The notes under the pieces are model-generated. The model made no database searches. It was given only the letters and a program-made list of their open reading frames with translations, and was not told the origin of the DNA. A stretch of DNA of 64,000 nt. Source: Thermoplasmata archaeon (GTDB lineage Archaea; Thermoplasmatota; Thermoplasmata; Lutacidiplasmatales; UBA184). Made by a program: the position numbers and the translations under genes. Position 1 is the first letter of the stretch. Each line of letters begins with the position of its first letter. Shown here piece by piece: positions 23,707 through 32,724 of this stretch. Location: the NCBI GenBank assembly GCA_027365105.1, contig DAHXNZ010000005.1, positions 1-64,000 on the forward strand. Reading direction: 5' to 3'.

Positions 23707-24336
23707 TTGGGGCGTGCGCTCCAGCGACCGCACCTCCGGGTCGTCGGGGTCGACGACGGAGCCTTCCGACGGAGTTCGGTCCGAGCACCCCTCGCGGCGA
23801 TCCAGCTGTCGCTGCCCCGCCGCATCGAGGCCGTCGGACGATCGTTCGTCACCGTCGACGGCCGCGATGCGACCGATCGCATCCTGCGCCTCGTCCGGGC
23901 CACCGCGCACGTCCCGGACCTGCGGGCCCTCCTGCTGGACGGTCCCCTGGTGGGAGGGTTCAACGTGGTCGACCTCGACCGCCTCGCCGGGGAGCTTCGG
24001 CTCCCGGTCGTGACGGTCTCCCGGCGCCGTCCGGACCTCCCCCGGATCCGGGAGGTGCTCGAGCGGTACTTTCCCGAGGATGCGGCCGAGCGGTGGCGGC
24101 TCCTCCGCCGCCATCCCCCGCGCCCCTGGACCCGGTCGCCCGCATCGCTGTGGGGCACGGTCCTCGGGGCCGGCCGCCGCGAAGCCGCCCGGCTCCTCGA
24201 ACGGTCCGCCGTCGACGGGCGATGGCCGGAGCCGCTTCGCCTCGCCCACCTAGTCGCCTCGGCGGGTCGGACCCGGAGGGCGGCGGTCGGGCGAAGGATT
24301 AAGCGACCCCGGGGCTCATTGCGACCGGGCCTGTAG
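23707..24336 (+). CDS. DUF99 family protein (UPF0215)
   Basis: About 209 residues, archaeal DUF99. LRVVGVDDGAFRR, FVTVDGRDATDRILRLV, LLLDGPLVGGFNVVDLDRLAGELRLPVVTVSRR and IREVLERYF are the family landmarks; the fold is endonuclease V-like, but activity is not established. The start is uncertain: there is no ATG or GTG in frame before the conserved DDG, so a TTG at 23707 or 23698 is assumed. The stop TAG (24334-24336) lies inside the tRNA-Arg gene, so the two genes overlap by 10 nt. Confidence 0.8.
   Translation: MGRALQRPHLRVVGVDDGAFRRSSVRAPLAAIQLSLPRRIEAVGRSFVTVDGRDATDRILRLVRATAHVPDLRALLLDGPLVGGFNVVDLDRLAGELRLPVVTVSRRRPDLPRIREVLERYFPEDAAERWRLLRRHPPRPWTRSPASLWGTVLGAGRREAARLLERSAVDGRWPEPLRLAHLVASAGRTRRAAVGRRIKRPRGSLRPGL
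24294..24302 (+). promoter_or_regulatory. TATA-like box for tRNA-Arg
   Basis: An AGGATTAAG element lies about 28 nt before the tRNA 5' end, inside the DUF99 coding sequence. Confidence 0.5.
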
Positions 24337-24432
24337 CTTAGCTTGGATAAAGTACTGGCCTTCTAAGCCAGCATCCTCGGGTTCAAAGGCTCCGGCAGCA
24401 TCGGGCCGGGGCGGGAACTCCCGACAGGCCCG
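24327..24432 (+). tRNA. tRNA-Arg (anticodon TCT) with a T-loop insertion
   Basis: The acceptor stem GGGCCTG pairs perfectly with CAGGCCC at 24425-24431. The D-stem is GCTT/AAGT, and the anticodon stem CTGGC/GCCAG closes the loop CTTCTAA, giving anticodon TCT at 24362-24364. The T-stem is TCGGG/CCCGA. The T-loop is split: TTCAAA (24382-24387) is followed by 31 extra nucleotides before T24419 and the 3' half of the T-stem. Without the insertion the tRNA is canonical (loop TTCAAAT). CCA is not encoded. The gene overlaps the DUF99 stop on the same strand and, antisense, the last 70 nt of the glycosyltransferase gene. Confidence 0.88.
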
Positions 24433-25631
24433 CCCTCCTCCGGCAGGGCGCCGGGGATCCCGTTCTGGGCGGCCCGGTAGATGGCGAGGTACCGGTCGGT
24501 CATGACCTCAAGCGATGCGGTCCGCCGGACCCAGCGGAGACCGGCCCCGGCCAGCCGCTCCCGCTCCTCGGGCCGGTCGAGGAGTTCGGTCAGGATCCGA
24601 TGGAGCGCCGGGGGGTCGGCGGGATCGGCCAGCCGTCCGGTCGCCCCGTCGGTGATGATCTCGGCCGGTCCGCCGAGGCGGAGCGCGACGACACAAGCCC
24701 CCGAGGCCATCGCCTCGAGGAGCGCGATCCCGCCCGTATCGCTGACCGAAGGGAGGACGAAGATCGAGCTCGCCGCCAGCAGCGAGGCCTTCTCCTCCTC
24801 CGGGACCGAATCGACCAGTCGGACCCGCTCGCGCAGGTGTCGGTCCCGGGCGAGTCGGTCCCGGACCGCCGCCTCCTCCGGGCCGCGCCCGGCGACGACC
24901 GCCCGGAACTCGGTCTTGGGCCGGGCGGCCGCGACCGCGTCCAGGAAGCGGTGGATCCCCTTGTCCCGGGTCCACCGGGCGAGGTAGGTGACAATCGGTC
25001 GGTCGTCCCAGCCTTCCCGGCTCCGCCAGTCGGGGAGGTGCCACCCGGGGGCGAACCGGTCGGTGTCGATCCCGTTCGGCAGGATCTGGACTGGAGGTCG
25101 GAACGGCTTTTTCGCGTGGGCATCCAGCACGGCCTTGGCCGCCCGGGACGGTGTGGTGACCCGGTCGCACCGCCAGTACAGCCCCAGATTGAACCACCAC
25201 GCGCACCGGAAAAAGATCGGGACGAACCACTTCTGGGGCAGGCTCTCGCGCATGGCCCACAGATCGGTGTGGAAGGTGCCGACGAGGGGGATCCGAAAGT
25301 GCCGGGCGGAGAGGAAGCCGAGCGAACCCACCCCGCCCGGGGAGTGGAGGTGGACCACGTCCGCCCCGCTCAGCCCCTCGCCCCGGAGCGAGAGGTAGGG
25401 AAACACCGGCCAGCGGTACTGACCGTAGAGCGGGACGGGCACCGCCCGCAGCCGGCGGACCCGGACCCCCGAGGGCCGGGTCTCGACGGGCGTCGAGGCC
25501 TTCCTCCCGCCGGGAGCGTACACCCGGATCGAGTGGCCCCGACGGGCCAGCGAGTCGGCGAGGTCGGCGGTGACCCGGGCCACTCCGTCGTGGGTCGGCA
25601 GGAACGAGTCGGTGAACAGGGCGATCTCCAT
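24363..25631 (-). CDS. Glycosyltransferase family 4 protein
   Basis: A 422-residue GT-B fold enzyme. The N-terminal acceptor domain starts IALFTDSFLPTHDGVARVTADLADSLARRGH, with VVHLHSPGGVGSLG and GTFHTDLWAMRE. The donor domain carries PNGIDTDRFAPG, LARWTRDKGIHRFLDAV, VVAGRGPEE and the E-x7-E motif in GGIALLEAMASGACVVA. Related enzymes transfer sugars to diacylglycerol or to phosphoinositol-type acceptors. It is the last gene of the mevalonate operon, 21 nt after DUF835, which hints at lipid head-group glycosylation. Its last about 23 codons run antisense through the tRNA-Arg gene, and the stop codon lies within the tRNA. Confidence 0.88.
   Translation of the reverse strand: MEIALFTDSFLPTHDGVARVTADLADSLARRGHSIRVYAPGGRKASTPVETRPSGVRVRRLRAVPVPLYGQYRWPVFPYLSLRGEGLSGADVVHLHSPGGVGSLGFLSARHFRIPLVGTFHTDLWAMRESLPQKWFVPIFFRCAWWFNLGLYWRCDRVTTPSRAAKAVLDAHAKKPFRPPVQILPNGIDTDRFAPGWHLPDWRSREGWDDRPIVTYLARWTRDKGIHRFLDAVAAARPKTEFRAVVAGRGPEEAAVRDRLARDRHLRERVRLVDSVPEEEKASLLAASSIFVLPSVSDTGGIALLEAMASGACVVALRLGGPAEIITDGATGRLADPADPPALHRILTELLDRPEERERLAGAGLRWVRRTASLEVMTDRYLAIYRAAQNGIPGALPEEGGPVGSSRPGPMLPEPLNPRMLA
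24388..24418 (+). other. Probable intron in the T-loop of tRNA-Arg (position 59/60)
   Basis: The 31-nt insertion contains a hairpin (CTCCGGC pairing with GCCGGGG, 8-nt loop) and ends in GGGAAC. Because of the run of A at the left junction, the splice point could lie anywhere from position 56/57 to 59/60. In the precursor GGGTTC (24379-24384) can pair with GAACTC (24415-24420), a helix that competes with the mature T-stem. I did not find a canonical 3-4-3 bulge-helix-bulge by eye. Confidence 0.7.
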
Positions 25632-26866: not shown

Positions 26867-28039
26867 CTAGGGTTCCCTCCGTTCGAGAAGGTGGACCACA
26901 CTGGTCGCCCCGGTCCCGCCGACGTCGTGGGTGAGGCCGATCCGGGCCCCGGGGACCTGGCGCTCCCCCGCCTGACCGCGCAGTTGTCGGACGATCTCGA
27001 CGACCTGGGCGACCCCGACGGCGCCGAAGGGGCGCCCCTGGGCCTTGAGGCCGCCGGAGGGGTTCATCATCAGCCGGCCCTGGCCGGTGAACTCTCCCCG
27101 TTCGACCGCCGGTCCGGCGCGGCCCTTCTCCACGAACCCGAGGTCCTCGAGGGCGAGCAGCGCGCTGATCGTATACCCGTCATGGATCTCGGCCACCTGG
27201 ACGTCCGACGGCGAGAGGTGCGCCGTCCGGAACGCGGTCTCGGCGGCGACGCGCGTCGACTCCAGGACCGTCGGGTCCTGCCGGTGCTGGACGGCCATCG
27301 TATCGGTCGCGACGCTGCTCGCGGCGATGCGGATCGGGATCTCGGTGTGCCGCTTCGCCTCGGAGAGCGGCCCGAGGACGACCGCCGCGGCGCCGTCGCT
27401 GAGCGGCGCGCAGTCGAACATGCCGAGCGGTTCCGCGACCCGGCTCGCGGCGAGCACCTGGGCCACCGTGAGTGGGTTGCGGTAGTGGGCGAGCGGGTTC
27501 TTCGCCCCCATCGCATGGGCGTGGACCGCAACCCGGGCCAGCTGCTCCGGGGTGGTGCCGTACTGGTGCATGTGGCGCCGGGCGATGAGCGCCCAAAGCG
27601 CCGGCAAGGTCGCCCCGAAGACGACCTCCCACTCCTGGTCGGCGGAGGCGCTGGCGATCTGGTTGCCGGTCGTATCGGGGACGTCGGTCAGCTTCTCCGC
27701 GCCGCCGACCACGACGTAGTCGTATTGGCCGCTCGCCACCGCGAGGTAGCCCTGATGCAACGCGAGGGAGCCCGAAGCGCCCCCGCCCTCGATTCGGATC
27801 GCCGGAAGGTGCCGTCCCGCCAGCCCGGCGTAGTCGAGGATCAAGGGGGCGATGTGCTCCTGGTCGAGAAGCGGGCCGCTCGCCATGCTGCCGAGATAGA
27901 GGGCACTCAGGTCCTTGGAGGAGAGCTTCGCGTCCACGAGGGCCTCGAGCCCGGCCTCGATCCCGATCTCCCGGAACGAGCGGTCCCAGAGTTCGCCGAA
28001 CCGGGTCATCCCGATCCCGAGGACCGCGACCTCCCGCAT
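26867..28039 (-). CDS. Thiolase-fold protein of the mevalonate operon, catalytic Cys and His replaced
   Basis: A 390-residue SCP2-type thiolase fold: REVAVLGIGMTRFGELWDRSFREI, GQYDYVVVGGAEKLTD, AEIHDGYTISALLALEDLGF, MNPSGGLKAQG. By position it should make acetoacetyl-CoA for HMG-CoA synthase, 2 nt upstream. However, the nucleophilic cysteine expected in the (C)ASG motif is glycine (G87 in EGGGASG), and the GHP-x-GATG motif reads GRPFGAVG (R336 for His). The second thiolase in the window (54844) has C88 and H338 at the matching places. It could be a structural pseudo-enzyme of the complex or use a different mechanism. Confidence 0.85.
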   Translation of the reverse strand: MREVAVLGIGMTRFGELWDRSFREIGIEAGLEALVDAKLSSKDLSALYLGSMASGPLLDQEHIAPLILDYAGLAGRHLPAIRIEGGGASGSLALHQGYLAVASGQYDYVVVGGAEKLTDVPDTTGNQIASASADQEWEVVFGATLPALWALIARRHMHQYGTTPEQLARVAVHAHAMGAKNPLAHYRNPLTVAQVLAASRVAEPLGMFDCAPLSDGAAAVVLGPLSEAKRHTEIPIRIAASSVATDTMAVQHRQDPTVLESTRVAAETAFRTAHLSPSDVQVAEIHDGYTISALLALEDLGFVEKGRAGPAVERGEFTGQGRLMMNPSGGLKAQGRPFGAVGVAQVVEIVRQLRGQAGERQVPGARIGLTHDVGGTGATSVVHLLERREP

Positions 28040-28041
28040 CG

Positions 28042-29094
28042 TCAGCTCCCCCCCATGTGGATCTTGCCGCGGAACTTGGCGTAGACCGCATAGTTGAGGA
28101 AGGTCCCGCCGTGGAGGTAGCTCTCCACCGACGGCCCGAGGGCCCGGGCGAAGCTCTTGAGTTCGGGCGTGGTCTCGATATCGAAGGCGTCGCTGCCCGC
28201 CCCGCTCCCGTACCCGACCATGAGGATCCGCTCGCCCGGGTCGGCGTGGTCGAGGACGTTGGCGAGCCCGATCAGGGCCGCCCCGGAGTAGGTGTTGCCG
28301 ATGAACGGCGTCACGAGGCCGTAGCGCATCTGGTCGTCGGTGAACCCCAGCTGCTTGCCGACACGCTGCGGGAACTTTCCGTTCGGCTGGTGGAAGACCA
28401 CGTGCTGGTAGGAGGCCGGGGTGGTCCCGGCGACCTCCATGAGGTGGTGCGCACACTCGGTGACGTGCTTGAAGTAGGCCGGTTCGCCGGTGAACCGCCC
28501 GCTGTGGGACGGGTAGCGCTGCCCTTCTCGGCGCCAGAAGTCCGGCGTGTCGGTGGTGTAGCTCACGGTGTGGTGGATCCGGGCGATCACCCGCTGGCGG
28601 CCGATGGCGAACGCGGCGCCTCCCGCGCTCGCCGAGTACTCGAGTGCATCGCCCGGGGCGCCCTGGCTCGTGTCGGTCCCGATCGCCACGCCCAGGTCGA
28701 TCATCCGGGCCCCGACGAGGCCGAGGCAGGTCTGGATGGCGGCCGTGCCCGCCTTGCAGGCGAACTCGAAGTCGGCGGCGGTGAGATGCGGGGCCGCCCC
28801 CACCGCCTGGGCGACGACGGTGGCGGTCGGCTTGACCGCGTACGGGTGGGACTCGGAGCCGACATAGAGCGCGCCAATCGACTGCGGGTCGATCCGGCCG
28901 CGCTGGAGCGCCTGGCGCAGCGCCTCGGTCGAGATCGTGATCGTGTCCTCGTCCGGCGACGGGACGCTTTTCTGGACGATGTAGAGGCCCTGGCCCATCG
29001 CGGCACCATCGGCGCCCCAGACCGACCCGATCTCGGCCGGGGCGATCCGGTACTTCGGGACATACGCTCCGTAGCTCACAATTCCAGCGTCCAT
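28042..29094 (-). CDS. Hydroxymethylglutaryl-CoA synthase, archaeal type
   Basis: The 350-residue enzyme condenses acetyl-CoA with acetoacetyl-CoA to HMG-CoA, the second step of isoprenoid lipid synthesis. The active-site triad is visible: Glu in [11 protein letters not shown] (E82), the acylated cysteine in FEFACKAGT (C113), and His in [10 protein letters not shown] (H235). [20 protein letters not shown] and [12 protein letters not shown] follow. I choose ATG 29094 ([15 protein letters not shown]-terminus) with GGAGGA 10 nt before it; ATG 29112, overlapping the upstream regulator's stop, is possible. It is grouped with thiolase and DUF35. Confidence 0.95.
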
Positions 29095-29111
29095 GCGGTG
29101 GGTTTCCTCCA

Positions 29112-29789
29112 TTACATTCGCTCCAAACGAGTCAGGATCTCGGGAGGGCGAAGGGCGGTGGTCAGGAGCGGGATCCGCTCGACCTCGCTGAGGCGGACCG
29201 CGAGGGGATCGACGCGCCCCGGATCGGAAAAGATCACGGCGGAAGGCTTGAGGGGATGGGCCCGGACCGCGACCATCGGAGAGCGGCCGTACTTGACCTG
29301 CGAGAAGATGAGCGCCCGTTGGGTCGTCCAGCCGAACACCTCGGAGTACCGGGTGGCATCGATCGAAAGGATCGCCTTCGGGGCATCGATGAGCGTGAAG
29401 CCATGGATGTCCCGGTGGAGGTCGACCGAGCTGACCGCCACCGCCTCGAGGCGGGAGGCGAGCTTGGGGAGCGGCACCGCGGCGGAGAACTCCCGCCGGC
29501 CCAGGATTCCCAGGGAGGCCGGTAGGCCCCCGAGCTGCTGGTACATCCGCCCGCCGTGGTGATGATCGACCTCGACCAAGGCGTCGACATACCGGCGGAT
29601 GAAGGCCGCGCCGGGGCTCGCGCGTCGTTCCGACTCGTAGTCGCTGATGACCGAAGGGACCGTCGCGAGTTGGTGGGCGAGATCTCGTTGGGTGATCCCG
29701 AAGTCCTCCCGCCACTTGCGGAGGGTACGGCCGGGGTGGGGGCTCAGCACGACTTCCCCGGCGATCTTCTCCCGGATCTCCGCGTCCAC
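29112..29789 (-). CDS. XRE-type helix-turn-helix transcriptional regulator (COG1709-like)
   Basis: A 225-residue protein with an N-terminal helix-turn-helix of the Cro/C1 type ([49 protein letters not shown], residues about 24-72) and a C-terminal domain of unknown ligand ([33 protein letters not shown]). Related archaeal regulators often sit next to HMG-CoA synthase, so it may control the mevalonate operon and its own promoter. It starts with GTG about 25 nt after a TATA box, so the operon mRNA is probably leaderless. Confidence 0.85.
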
Positions 29790-29871: not shown

Positions 29872-29970
29872 TGGACCGGGCGAGAGTTTCCGGAGGCGGG
29901 GGGCCGCCTCCCTTTGAACTCGCGACCTCTACCTTGCCAAGGTAGCGATCTTCCGCTGATCTACCGGCCC
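29872..29970 (-). tRNA. tRNA-Ala (anticodon GGC) with a T-loop insertion
   Basis: Read on the minus strand from 29970: acceptor GGGCCGG pairs with CCGGTCC (29879-29873), including the G3:U70 pair that identifies tRNA-Ala. The D-stem is GATC/GATC, and the anticodon stem CTACC/GGTAG closes TTGGCAA with anticodon GGC. The T-stem is GCGAG/CTCGC. The loop starts TTCAAA and is interrupted by 27 nt before the last T. Removal restores GTTCAAAT and a perfect tRNA ending in discriminator A (29872); CCA is not encoded. A TATA-like box lies upstream. Confidence 0.9.
29886..29912 (-). other. Probable intron in the T-loop of tRNA-Ala (position 59/60)
   Basis: The 27-nt insertion contains a perfect 8-bp hairpin (GGAGGCGG with CCGCCTCC, loop CCCC) and ends GGAAAC. 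It sits at the same T-loop position as in tRNA-Arg, and both inserts begin GG and end AAC. GAGTT of the T-arm can pair with AACTC across the right junction in the precursor. No canonical bulge-helix-bulge was identified by eye. Confidence 0.72.
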
Positions 29971-30035: not shown

Positions 30036-32684
30036 CTACATCCTCCGACGGGCGACCGCGAGGATCGCGGGAAAGTAGTACAGCCGGACGAGGAAGGTGT
30101 CAATGACGAGTGAAATCGCAAAGGCGATCCCGAGCTGCTGGAGGAAGCCGAGGGGCTGGAGGCCGAGGGACCCGAGGGAGGCGGCGAGGATCAGGCCCAG
30201 GCTGGTGACGACCGCTCCCGAATAGCCGATCCCCCGGGGGATTGCCCGCCGGGGCGGCTCGCGCCGTTGCTCCTCGACGACCCGGCTCAGGATGAAGACC
30301 GTGTAGTCGTTGCCCAGGGAAACCAGGATGACGAACAGAATCAGCGGGATGAGGTAGATCAGAGCCTCGTGGAGCAGGTAGGTCGAGATGAAGTAGAGAA
30401 GTACCGTCGTGGCCGTAATGGAGAGGTAGACGCCCGACAGCGAAATGAGCGGGTAGATCAGCGATCGGAACGCGAGACCTAGGACGGCTCCGATCAGGAC
30501 GACGATCAGGAGCTCGAGTTCCGGATACAGGACCTGGTTCTGGCTCTTCTGGTCGACGACCCCGGCCGCGGCTCCTCCGACGATCCATCCGGGATGGGCC
30601 CGGAGCGACAGGACGAACGCCGACCCTCCGTCGCTGAAAGGGCTCGCGACCGAATACAGGTTCCAGTACGCCCAAGACCCGTTCGAGAAGAGATAGCCGG
30701 TCGCCCCCGAAAGTGTCGCACCGGCCGAGCCGTTCGGCGCGAGGTCGTGCCCCAGCAGGAAGGGGCCCGTACCGCTCGCCAGGCCCGGGGTCGTGTGCAT
30801 CGCCGCGGCGGCCCGGTAGAGGATCGCGGTCCCGGCGGGGGTCAGGCTTCCGTTGGCGGCCAGATACCCCGAAGGATCGTGGACCAGCACCGTGGTCGGG
30901 AACAGGAGGTTGGCTCCGAAGGCCGATTGGAGCGCGTCCTGGGCCCGGACGCTCGGGAAGGAGGCGGGCAGGCCCTGGGTGATGTCGTAGCTGGTCGGTA
31001 CGGTCAAGGCGGCGACCACGACCGGGATCGCGACGATCCCGACGACCGCGAGGACCACCCACCGGTGCCGGACGGAGGCGTCGGCGGCCCGGTAGAAGAC
31101 CGACCGCTCAAGAGGCCGGGAACGGGGCGCGCGGCCCGGGGCGAGGAAGACCCTGGGCCCGAGGAAGCTCGTGATCACCGGGAGCAGGGTCGCCTCGCAG
31201 ACCCCCACCAGGAGGACGGTGACAAAGAGGACCGGCCCCCACGTAGAAATTCCGGGGAGGAAGGACAGCGCCCCGAGGCCGGCCGCGACCGTGACCGCGC
31301 TGGTCAGGATGGCAGCTCCCGCCGTTTCGGTCGCCCGCTCGATCGCCCGGTTGGGCGCGAGGCCCTCCCTCAGCCCTTCCCGGTACCGGTAGAGCAGGAA
31401 GACCAGGAAATCGGTCGCGATTCCGAGGACCACCGCCGTGAGCACGTAGGTCACGATGTAGTTGACCGGTCCGATGAACGCCCCCGTGAGGAGGATCCCG
31501 AAGTACCCGAAGAGGGTGCCCGTGCCAACGAACCCCACCGCGAGGATCGGGGCGACCCATGAGCGAAGCGTGATGAAGACCGCGACCGCCAGCAGGATGA
31601 AGGTGAGCCCGAACAGGAACCCCTCCGAAGCGCTCGCCGCTTGGGAGTCGTAGCTGACCGCCCCGTTCCCCGCGACCCCTGCAGCCGATCCGAAGAAGGC
31701 GGTGGCGACGGTCCGAATTTCCGGGACTGCGGCCTGGGCGGGGTAGAAGTTGTCGGCACCGCGAAAGCCGTCGGGCACGCTGAAGCGCACATAGATGAGG
31801 CTGACCTCCCCGTTGGGACTGACGAAGGGGGCCCGCAGGGCCGCCGAGGCAGCCAGCCAGCCGTCGGTCGTCACGAACCGTAATCCCCCATCCCCGGGAG
31901 CGGCAAAGGCCGAGACCAGCGTGCCGGGGATCGGGTGCCCGAATATCGTGAGGCCCCCCAGAGCCAGCCACCCGCCGACCAGGGTCGGGAGGGCCGTAGT
32001 GGCGTTCGTCACGGTCGTGCGAGCCAGGAGGAAGCGGCCCGGGGCCGGGTCAGGGAGGAACGGGAGGGCGGTCGAGCGGACCGCCCCGGTCACCAAGGCG
32101 GAGGCCGCCACTCCTGCCGAATAGTTGTCCAGGAGGGCCTGCCGGAACGCCTGGGGATACCCGCCGGGGGGGCCGCCGGAGCGATTGTAGGTCGAGTTGA
32201 TGGTCGCTTGGGCCCCGGACCAGTTCGCGAAGAACGCGGTGGGAAATCCCCAGGCCTGACGCGAGAGGGCTTCGAAGAGGGTTGAATTGGCGGCGATCGC
32301 CGGTCGGGCCGGGTCGAGGGCGGAGTCGAGTGCGCCGGCGAGGGCCGAGCAGATCGAGCTCGTGGAGTTGAAGTCGCGGATGTGGGCCTGCTCGACGGCG
32401 TTCGAGAGCCCATACGTCGCGTTGCAGTAGGCGGGTCCCGGCGAGGTCGCGTTCTGGACGACCACGAAGAGGGTCGAGACCTGCGGGCTCGCCCGGGCCA
32501 GCAGCGCCTGGGCTTGGGCCGACTGGCTACCGGCGACCGAGCTCCCGCTCGAAGAGTAGCTGACGTAGCCTTGGTAGAGGCCGGCCACCGGAGCCATCGC
32601 GAGCAGGATCACGATCCAGACGAGAAGCACGGCTCGCCGCCGCTTCAGCAGGGCCCGGGCCCAGGTCCTCCCGGAATCGACCAT
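30036..32684 (-). CDS. RND/MMPL-family membrane exporter (second copy)
   Basis: An 882-residue relative of the protein at 1529-4546: an N-terminal helix (AVLLVWIVILLAMAPVAGL), a sequon-rich external domain, a five-helix block containing GIATDFLVFLLYRYREGL, a second helix and external domain, and a final block with SLGNDYTVFILSRVVEE. The acidic residues in these D-Y/F motifs are the proposed proton-relay sites. The substrate is unknown. The start is ATG 32684, about 40 nt after a TATTAAA box; the in-frame GTG at 32714 lies too close to that box to be transcribed. Confidence 0.87.
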   Translation of the reverse strand: MVDSGRTWARALLKRRRAVLLVWIVILLAMAPVAGLYQGYVSYSSSGSSVAGSQSAQAQALLARASPQVSTLFVVVQNATSPGPAYCNATYGLSNAVEQAHIRDFNSTSSICSALAGALDSALDPARPAIAANSTLFEALSRQAWGFPTAFFANWSGAQATINSTYNRSGGPPGGYPQAFRQALLDNYSAGVAASALVTGAVRSTALPFLPDPAPGRFLLARTTVTNATTALPTLVGGWLALGGLTIFGHPIPGTLVSAFAAPGDGGLRFVTTDGWLAASAALRAPFVSPNGEVSLIYVRFSVPDGFRGADNFYPAQAAVPEIRTVATAFFGSAAGVAGNGAVSYDSQAASASEGFLFGLTFILLAVAVFITLRSWVAPILAVGFVGTGTLFGYFGILLTGAFIGPVNYIVTYVLTAVVLGIATDFLVFLLYRYREGLREGLAPNRAIERATETAGAAILTSAVTVAAGLGALSFLPGISTWGPVLFVTVLLVGVCEATLLPVITSFLGPRVFLAPGRAPRSRPLERSVFYRAADASVRHRWVVLAVVGIVAIPVVVAALTVPTSYDITQGLPASFPSVRAQDALQSAFGANLLFPTTVLVHDPSGYLAANGSLTPAGTAILYRAAAAMHTTPGLASGTGPFLLGHDLAPNGSAGATLSGATGYLFSNGSWAYWNLYSVASPFSDGGSAFVLSLRAHPGWIVGGAAAGVVDQKSQNQVLYPELELLIVVLIGAVLGLAFRSLIYPLISLSGVYLSITATTVLLYFISTYLLHEALIYLIPLILFVILVSLGNDYTVFILSRVVEEQRREPPRRAIPRGIGYSGAVVTSLGLILAASLGSLGLQPLGFLQQLGIAFAISLVIDTFLVRLYYFPAILAVARRRM

Positions 32685-32724
32685 AGGACCCGGGGCCGAC
32701 ACTGGGAGCGGCACGCCGGAGGCC

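Follow-up and report, generated by a model that had tools for sequence, protein, structure and literature searches.

The window analysed here is a single stretch of 64,000 nucleotides, part of contig C157 in a 1.83-Mb genome that is 97.5% complete. It contains two tRNA genes, tRNA-Ala(GGC) and tRNA-Arg(TCT), and each carries an insert between nucleotides 59 and 60 of its T-loop. The genes and the parts of their predicted introns are given below. Bit scores in this list are those of R1, a covariance model that covers the T-arm together with the intron and was trained on 11 introns of this genome, and BHB refers to a motif with two 3-nt bulges and a 4-bp helix.

29872..29970, minus strand: pre-tRNA-Ala(GGC), with tRNA position 1 at 29970 and position 73 at 29872
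29913..29918, minus strand: T-loop nucleotides 54-59 of tRNA-Ala(GGC), TTCAAA; cut predicted after A59 from the BHB rule
29886..29912, minus strand: predicted 27-nt intron at 59/60 of tRNA-Ala(GGC), first nucleotide at 29912; 54.0 bits
29911-29904 and 29899-29892, minus strand: intron helix of tRNA-Ala(GGC), GGAGGCGG with CCGCCTCC
29891-29886, minus strand: intron BHB strand of tRNA-Ala(GGC), GGAAAC
29885..29885, minus strand: U60 of tRNA-Ala(GGC), last nucleotide of bulge 2; cut predicted 5' of U60
24327..24432, plus strand: pre-tRNA-Arg(TCT), interrupted likewise; 51.7 bits
24388..24418, plus strand: predicted 31-nt intron at 59/60 of tRNA-Arg(TCT), first nucleotide at 24388
24389-24396 and 24405-24412, plus strand: intron helix of tRNA-Arg(TCT), GCTCCGGC with GCCGGGGC
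24413-24418, plus strand: intron BHB strand of tRNA-Arg(TCT), GGGAAC

The acceptor, D, anticodon and T stems of tRNA-Ala(GGC) all pair. Its T-arm reads GCGAG-TTCAAA, then the 27-nt insert (GGGAGGCGGCCCCCCGCCTCCGGAAAC), then T-CTCGC, and is followed by the acceptor strand CCGGTCC. Within the predicted motif, U54, U55 and C56 are paired to the intron sequence GAA, A57 faces a G, and the first bulge includes A58 and A59. As the preliminary description stated, this gene is the second and only other tRNA of the window, and its 27-nt insertion follows TTCAAA at the same site as in tRNA-Arg(TCT). Both inserts indeed start with GG and finish with AAC, and each contains a hairpin of 8 bp. A third tRNA was not found in the window (C157:1-64000) by Rfam tRNA, ARAGORN or whole-genome searches.

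ARAGORN calls no tRNA at all in the window, missing both genes as they stand because of the inserts, and it reports Ala(ggc) only after in-silico splicing. The Rfam tRNA scores of the unspliced genes are 34.3 bits for tRNA-Arg(TCT) and 27.2 bits for tRNA-Ala(GGC).

A glycosyltransferase ORF on the minus strand (24363-25631) shares 70 nt at its 3' end with the opposite-strand tRNA-Arg(TCT) (24363-24432). Upstream of tRNA-Ala(GGC) is an MMPL-family transporter ORF (30036-32714, minus strand), and downstream on the same strand are thiolase and HMG-CoA-synthase-like ORFs (26867-29715, minus strand).

Interrupted tRNA genes in the genome and its relatives

The tRNA census is based on searches of the genome with the Rfam tRNA family and with R1. 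The Rfam family has 40 matches, and R1 recovers its 11 training introns and adds Leu-TAG, His-GTG and Lys-TTT, which brings the total to 43 tRNA genes. Of these, 14 (about a third) have a T-loop intron at 59/60, and the T-loops of the other 29 are uninterrupted. The whole-genome tabulation proposed in the preliminary description shows that the insertions are not confined to the two window loci. The introns are distributed as follows.

T-loop introns at 59/60 (14): Ala-GGC, Arg-TCT, Arg-TCG, Asn-GTT, Asp-GTC, Gln-CTG, Glu-CTC, Gly-TCC, His-GTG, Leu-TAG, Lys-TTT, Ser-CGA, Ser-GCT, Ser-GGA
D-loop introns (4): iMet (L038), Arg-GCG (L035), Lys-TTT (L167), Leu-TAG (L165)
Anticodon-loop introns (3): Met, Tyr, Leu-TAA

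The D-loop introns have clear BHB motifs. The Lys-TTT and Leu-TAG genes have a T-loop intron besides the D-loop intron, and relatives have D-loop insertions in these two tRNAs as well. The load of the genome is 21 introns in 19 of the 43 tRNA genes (about 44%). Trp and some Pro tRNA genes were not found in the family and model searches of this genome. For the tRNA at C201:51894 the label Pro-CGG was rejected; ARAGORN identifies it as Arg-TCG after splicing.

Removal of the inserts restores tRNAs, as is expected of an archaeal BHB tRNA intron. An in-silico cut at 59/60 yields an ARAGORN tRNA in all 11 precursors examined, whereas random deletions of equal length do so in 0 of 220 cases. Before splicing, ARAGORN calls two of the 11, presumably from a chance T-stem inside the intron. 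Both window inserts are thus very probably archaeal tRNA introns at 59/60, whose excision is predicted.

The preliminary description had also raised the possibility that the two window loci are pseudogenes with intact copies elsewhere. Low Rfam scores before splicing (27 and 34 bits) would be compatible with decay, but none of the stems is disrupted, the orthologues of five further genomes are interrupted at the same place, and the Rfam tRNA and R1 searches of this 97.5% complete genome revealed no other copy of Ala-GGC or Arg-TCT. Pseudogenes are therefore a scarcely credible explanation of interruptions that are conserved between species.

R1 was also used to survey the class in 250 genomes, 50 of which are from the window's family. 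Each of these 50 has 5 to 14 matches, and the set of interrupted tRNAs is largely common to the six family genomes that were compared. Together with the 14 introns of this genome, these results bear out the earlier suggestion of a lineage-wide expansion. Outside the family, most genomes have 0 to 2 matches, with up to 6 in family f25. A sample of the phylum contains scattered additional R1 matches, which are candidates by score alone. Relatives of the splicing endonuclease (EndA) of this genome occur in Thermoplasmata MAGs that include UBA184 and the AcS/SubAcS series, which have been described as the order Lutacidiplasmatales (PMC9287336), an order of soil archaea.

Interruption of the T-loop of tRNA-Arg(UCU) is a widespread feature of Thermoplasmata. 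Because this intron is also found outside the window's family (in G055, G126, G178, G029, G144 and G166), it may be ancestral in the class and the Ala-GGC intron a later gain, as judged from this distribution rather than from a tree. About 13 further tRNAs would then have gained a T-loop intron in Lutacidiplasmatales, if the direction was indeed one of gain. The near-complete genomes G055, G126 and G178, of family f8, each have a single T-loop intron match, which is in tRNA-Arg(TCT).

The 3' part of tRNA genes is a common integrase target. It might be speculated that the T-loop was favoured as an intron site because the interruption of this part is an advantage.

Splice motif of the T-loop introns

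Motif statistics were derived from 133 T-loop introns of 43 Thermoplasmata genomes. These introns have a common register in which a 7x7 region lies between the T-stem and the intron hairpin. The first strand of this region reads U54 U55 C56 R57 A58 A59^N1, and the second reads S G R A N N^U60. Between them the strands form a helix, H, with the pairs U54-A, U55-R, C56-G and R57-S, and two bulges of 3 nt each, AA^N and NN^U. This corresponds to a BHB motif, whose rule predicts a cut between the second and third base of each bulge.

The R1 survey prefers introns that resemble its training set, which introduces some selection into the percentages. In this collection, position 54 is paired in 130 of the 133 introns, position 55 in 133 and position 56 in 132, U60 is present in 132, and the T-stem in its normal register has 5/5 pairs in all 133. 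Position 57, which adds little to R1 scores, covaries with the intron base S (Fisher 4.6e-23 within the family). When G is at this position (n=44), the opposite base is C in 42 introns and A in 2, and when A is present, the opposite base is G in 70, U in 18, A in 1 and never C. The fourth H pair is standard in 60 of the 133 introns, and the remainder are mostly A.G. Because A57 introns usually have this A.G pair, their H comprises three standard pairs and a purine mismatch.

The minimum-energy fold includes the full H helix and the bulges for Gly-TCC, Arg-TCG and Gln-CTG, and Arg-TCG exemplifies a G57 intron for which this fold is the full BHB. For A57 introns, the 7x7 loop frequently stays unpaired in the energy model. 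H is poor in the Lys-TTT intron of this genome, where UUCG faces CGGC.

The intron helix is also conserved. In introns of at least 20 nt, 4.44 of 5 pairs can form, compared with 2.36 in shuffled sequences (maximum 2.71 in 1000). When the 11 introns of this genome are arranged as hBHBh', in which helices flank the BHB motif on both sides, 90.3% of cells pair versus 64.2% after shuffling, and sliding the arrangement by one or more columns leaves no more than 63% of cells paired. The covariation score of the same 11 introns is 0.686 versus a shuffled mean of 0.206 (0/500), and all five intron-helix pairs change on both sides.

The preliminary description had proposed a different pairing, in which GGGTT or GAGTT of the T-arm pairs with AACTC across the right junction. 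This pairing is possible in the two window precursors, but it is not conserved among the 133 introns: only about two thirds of them have C or T as the last intron base, which would be the partner of G53. The conserved pairing is instead that of U54-U55-C56-R57 with S-G-R-A. A BHB of the opposite orientation, with bulges 5' of H and a UURAANU T-loop, was also rejected, as it leaves H unpaired and C56 is lost.

Alternatively, the inserts might be kept in the mature tRNA as an extension of the T-loop. However, both exon halves of a normal T-loop, UUCRAA and U60, are preserved exactly, the inserts differ in sequence and length (13-39 nt) yet the splice-motif pairing stays, and those tRNAs of the genome that are not interrupted have a normal T-loop of 7 nt. 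Retention is therefore very improbable.

Splicing enzymes and proposed mechanism

A single PF01974 gene is present in the genome (L001:1456-2520, minus strand), and it consists of one 354-aa ORF with two units. The catalytic Y, H and K residues of EndA are in the C-terminal unit, with the motifs FKYG, VHARYL and VRKQ, and the protein is colinear with the A. fulgidus alpha'2 enzyme (1r0v) over 77-336. On the basis of these units and this colinearity, the EndA of this genome is assigned to the alpha'2 type, a single polypeptide with tandem units, which supplies the endonuclease type that the preliminary description had wished to see identified. Sequence comparison reveals no insertion at the site of the crenarchaeal specificity loop in this EndA or in those of its relatives. 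A lysine-bearing loop by the active site (CSL or ASL), as is associated with broad specificity, is likewise absent from that site. The segment YGSQVGARLELS is equal in length to that of A. fulgidus and M. jannaschii, and the 3p1y chain is 10 residues longer there, which fits what we take 3p1y to be, namely the loop-grafted A. fulgidus enzyme. A gene for the RtcB ligase is also present (548 bits).

Existing data indicate that alpha'2 EndA is narrow in specificity and that the loop determines its breadth (PMC6379350). Archaeal EndA recognizes the BHB motif without need of the tRNA mature domain, and the homodimeric EndA of Ferroplasma, which is also in Thermoplasmata, cleaves minimal BHBs placed in hairpin loops (PMC8707768). 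Homodimeric EndA is also able to cut bulge-helix-loop motifs, as cited in PMC8707768.

In the model that we consider highly probable, the T-loop inserts are hBHBh' introns that are spliced by alpha'2 EndA and RtcB. The anatomy, covariation and conservation of the motif, together with the enzyme inventory, underlie this model. In the precursor, the 5-bp T-stem would constitute the exon helix h and the intron hairpin would be h'. Pairing of U54-U55-C56-R57 with the intron S-G-R-A would give the central helix H, of 4 bp, which separates two 3-nt bulges, A58-A59^N and N-N^U60. Cleavage by the single alpha'2 EndA would be expected between the second and third base of each bulge, and ligation of A59 to U60 by RtcB would then create a normal UUCRAAU T-loop. 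The canonical 37/38 geometry would thereby be copied, since a stem of 5 bp and a loop of 7 nt are common to the T-arm and the anticodon arm, and the T-loop would be cut between loop nucleotides 6 and 7. Given a strict BHB in the T-arm and the Ferroplasma precedent, an ordinary EndA substrate is expected, and T-loop introns should be removable by the ordinary splicing enzyme.

The preliminary description had instead suggested that splicing possibly follows a relaxed substrate rule. In a rival reading of this kind, non-BHB inserts would be cut by a broadened EndA, as with the (alpha-beta)2 enzymes of Crenarchaeota or the epsilon2 enzyme of ARMAN. T-loop positions elsewhere are tied to broad-specificity enzymes (PMC6379350, PMC4033280), and genome G026, which belongs to the same order and a sister family, has at least 11 T-loop introns that are mostly 13-15 nt in length (L209, L215, L219, L222-L227, L323 and L346). 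These short introns keep H (UUCA/UGAA), but the intron helix is absent, and so they correspond to bulge-helix-loop motifs rather than to the hBHBh' arrangement of the window's family. They are often accompanied by anticodon-loop or D-loop introns. By sequence comparison, the sole EndA of G026 is alpha'2 too, without a specificity loop. A relaxed substrate rule may thus exist within the order, in G026, but not at the two window loci. Introns of the window's family retain H, both bulges and h', and the EndA features noted above, the uninserted loop site and the unextended segment, also argue against a broadened enzyme. Because these inserts form a near-canonical hBHBh', which suits a narrow alpha'2 enzyme, a relaxed rule is unnecessary in the window's family, and splicing of this kind is unlikely there.

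Comparison with known intron systems

Non-canonical tRNA introns have been tied to heteromeric or loop-bearing splicing endonucleases (PMC4090602, PMC4033280). In euryarchaea with alpha4 or alpha2 enzymes, <10% of tRNA genes are interrupted, with one canonical intron each (PMC4090602), and only three thermophilic methanogens are named as euryarchaea with non-canonical introns (PMC3218864). The lineage studied here breaks this pattern of few, all-canonical introns in alpha2 euryarchaea. A literature search, whose reach did not extend to Marck and Grosjean 2003, found no paper on tRNA introns in Lutacidiplasmatales.

On balance, we lean slightly toward a broader conclusion: that Lutacidiplasmatales maintain a near-crenarchaeal intron load (about 44% of genes, in T-, D- and anticodon loops) by using an alpha'2 enzyme without a known specificity loop, and that the G026 enzyme removes T-loop introns of 13-15 nt that lack the intron helix. 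If so, the rule of few introns at canonical positions in alpha2 archaea fails. The T-loop introns also represent a ready set of substrates for testing whether position or motif limits the enzyme. Tools without T-loop intron models miss such tRNAs, as ARAGORN did in the window.

ARMAN-2, with its epsilon2 enzyme, and Korarchaeum, with an alpha2 enzyme, are similar to this lineage in having non-canonical introns outside Crenarchaeota. However, their enzymes bear loops (the ASL in ARMAN-2 and, as reported in PMC4033280, a crenarchaeal-type loop in Korarchaeum), and none is seen in ours. Introns at 59/60 are themselves known, chiefly from Crenarchaeota (PMC4090602), and these share with ours their position, their presence in many genes per genome and their possible co-occurrence with other introns. 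In contrast, the crenarchaeal introns are processed by an (alpha-beta)2 enzyme and their motifs are often relaxed, whereas ours occur in a euryarchaeon of the Thermoplasmata whose alpha'2 enzyme lacks the crenarchaeal loop.

The canonical 37/38 intron has the same four-base H, two 3-nt bulges and intron helix, the same cut between loop nucleotides 6 and 7, in a 7-nt loop closed by a stem of 5 bp, and the same expected enzymes, EndA and RtcB. It differs in that our introns are in the T-loop, where the exon side of H is an almost invariant UUCR, and therefore the intron S-G-R-A is nearly fixed too. By reusing the universal UUCR as a half-motif, T-loop introns would stay within the strict BHB rule. 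Their position and abundance are thus unusual for the enzyme type, whereas the motif and the enzyme type are ordinary. Unusual position and unusual motif, which are usually conflated, come apart in this lineage.
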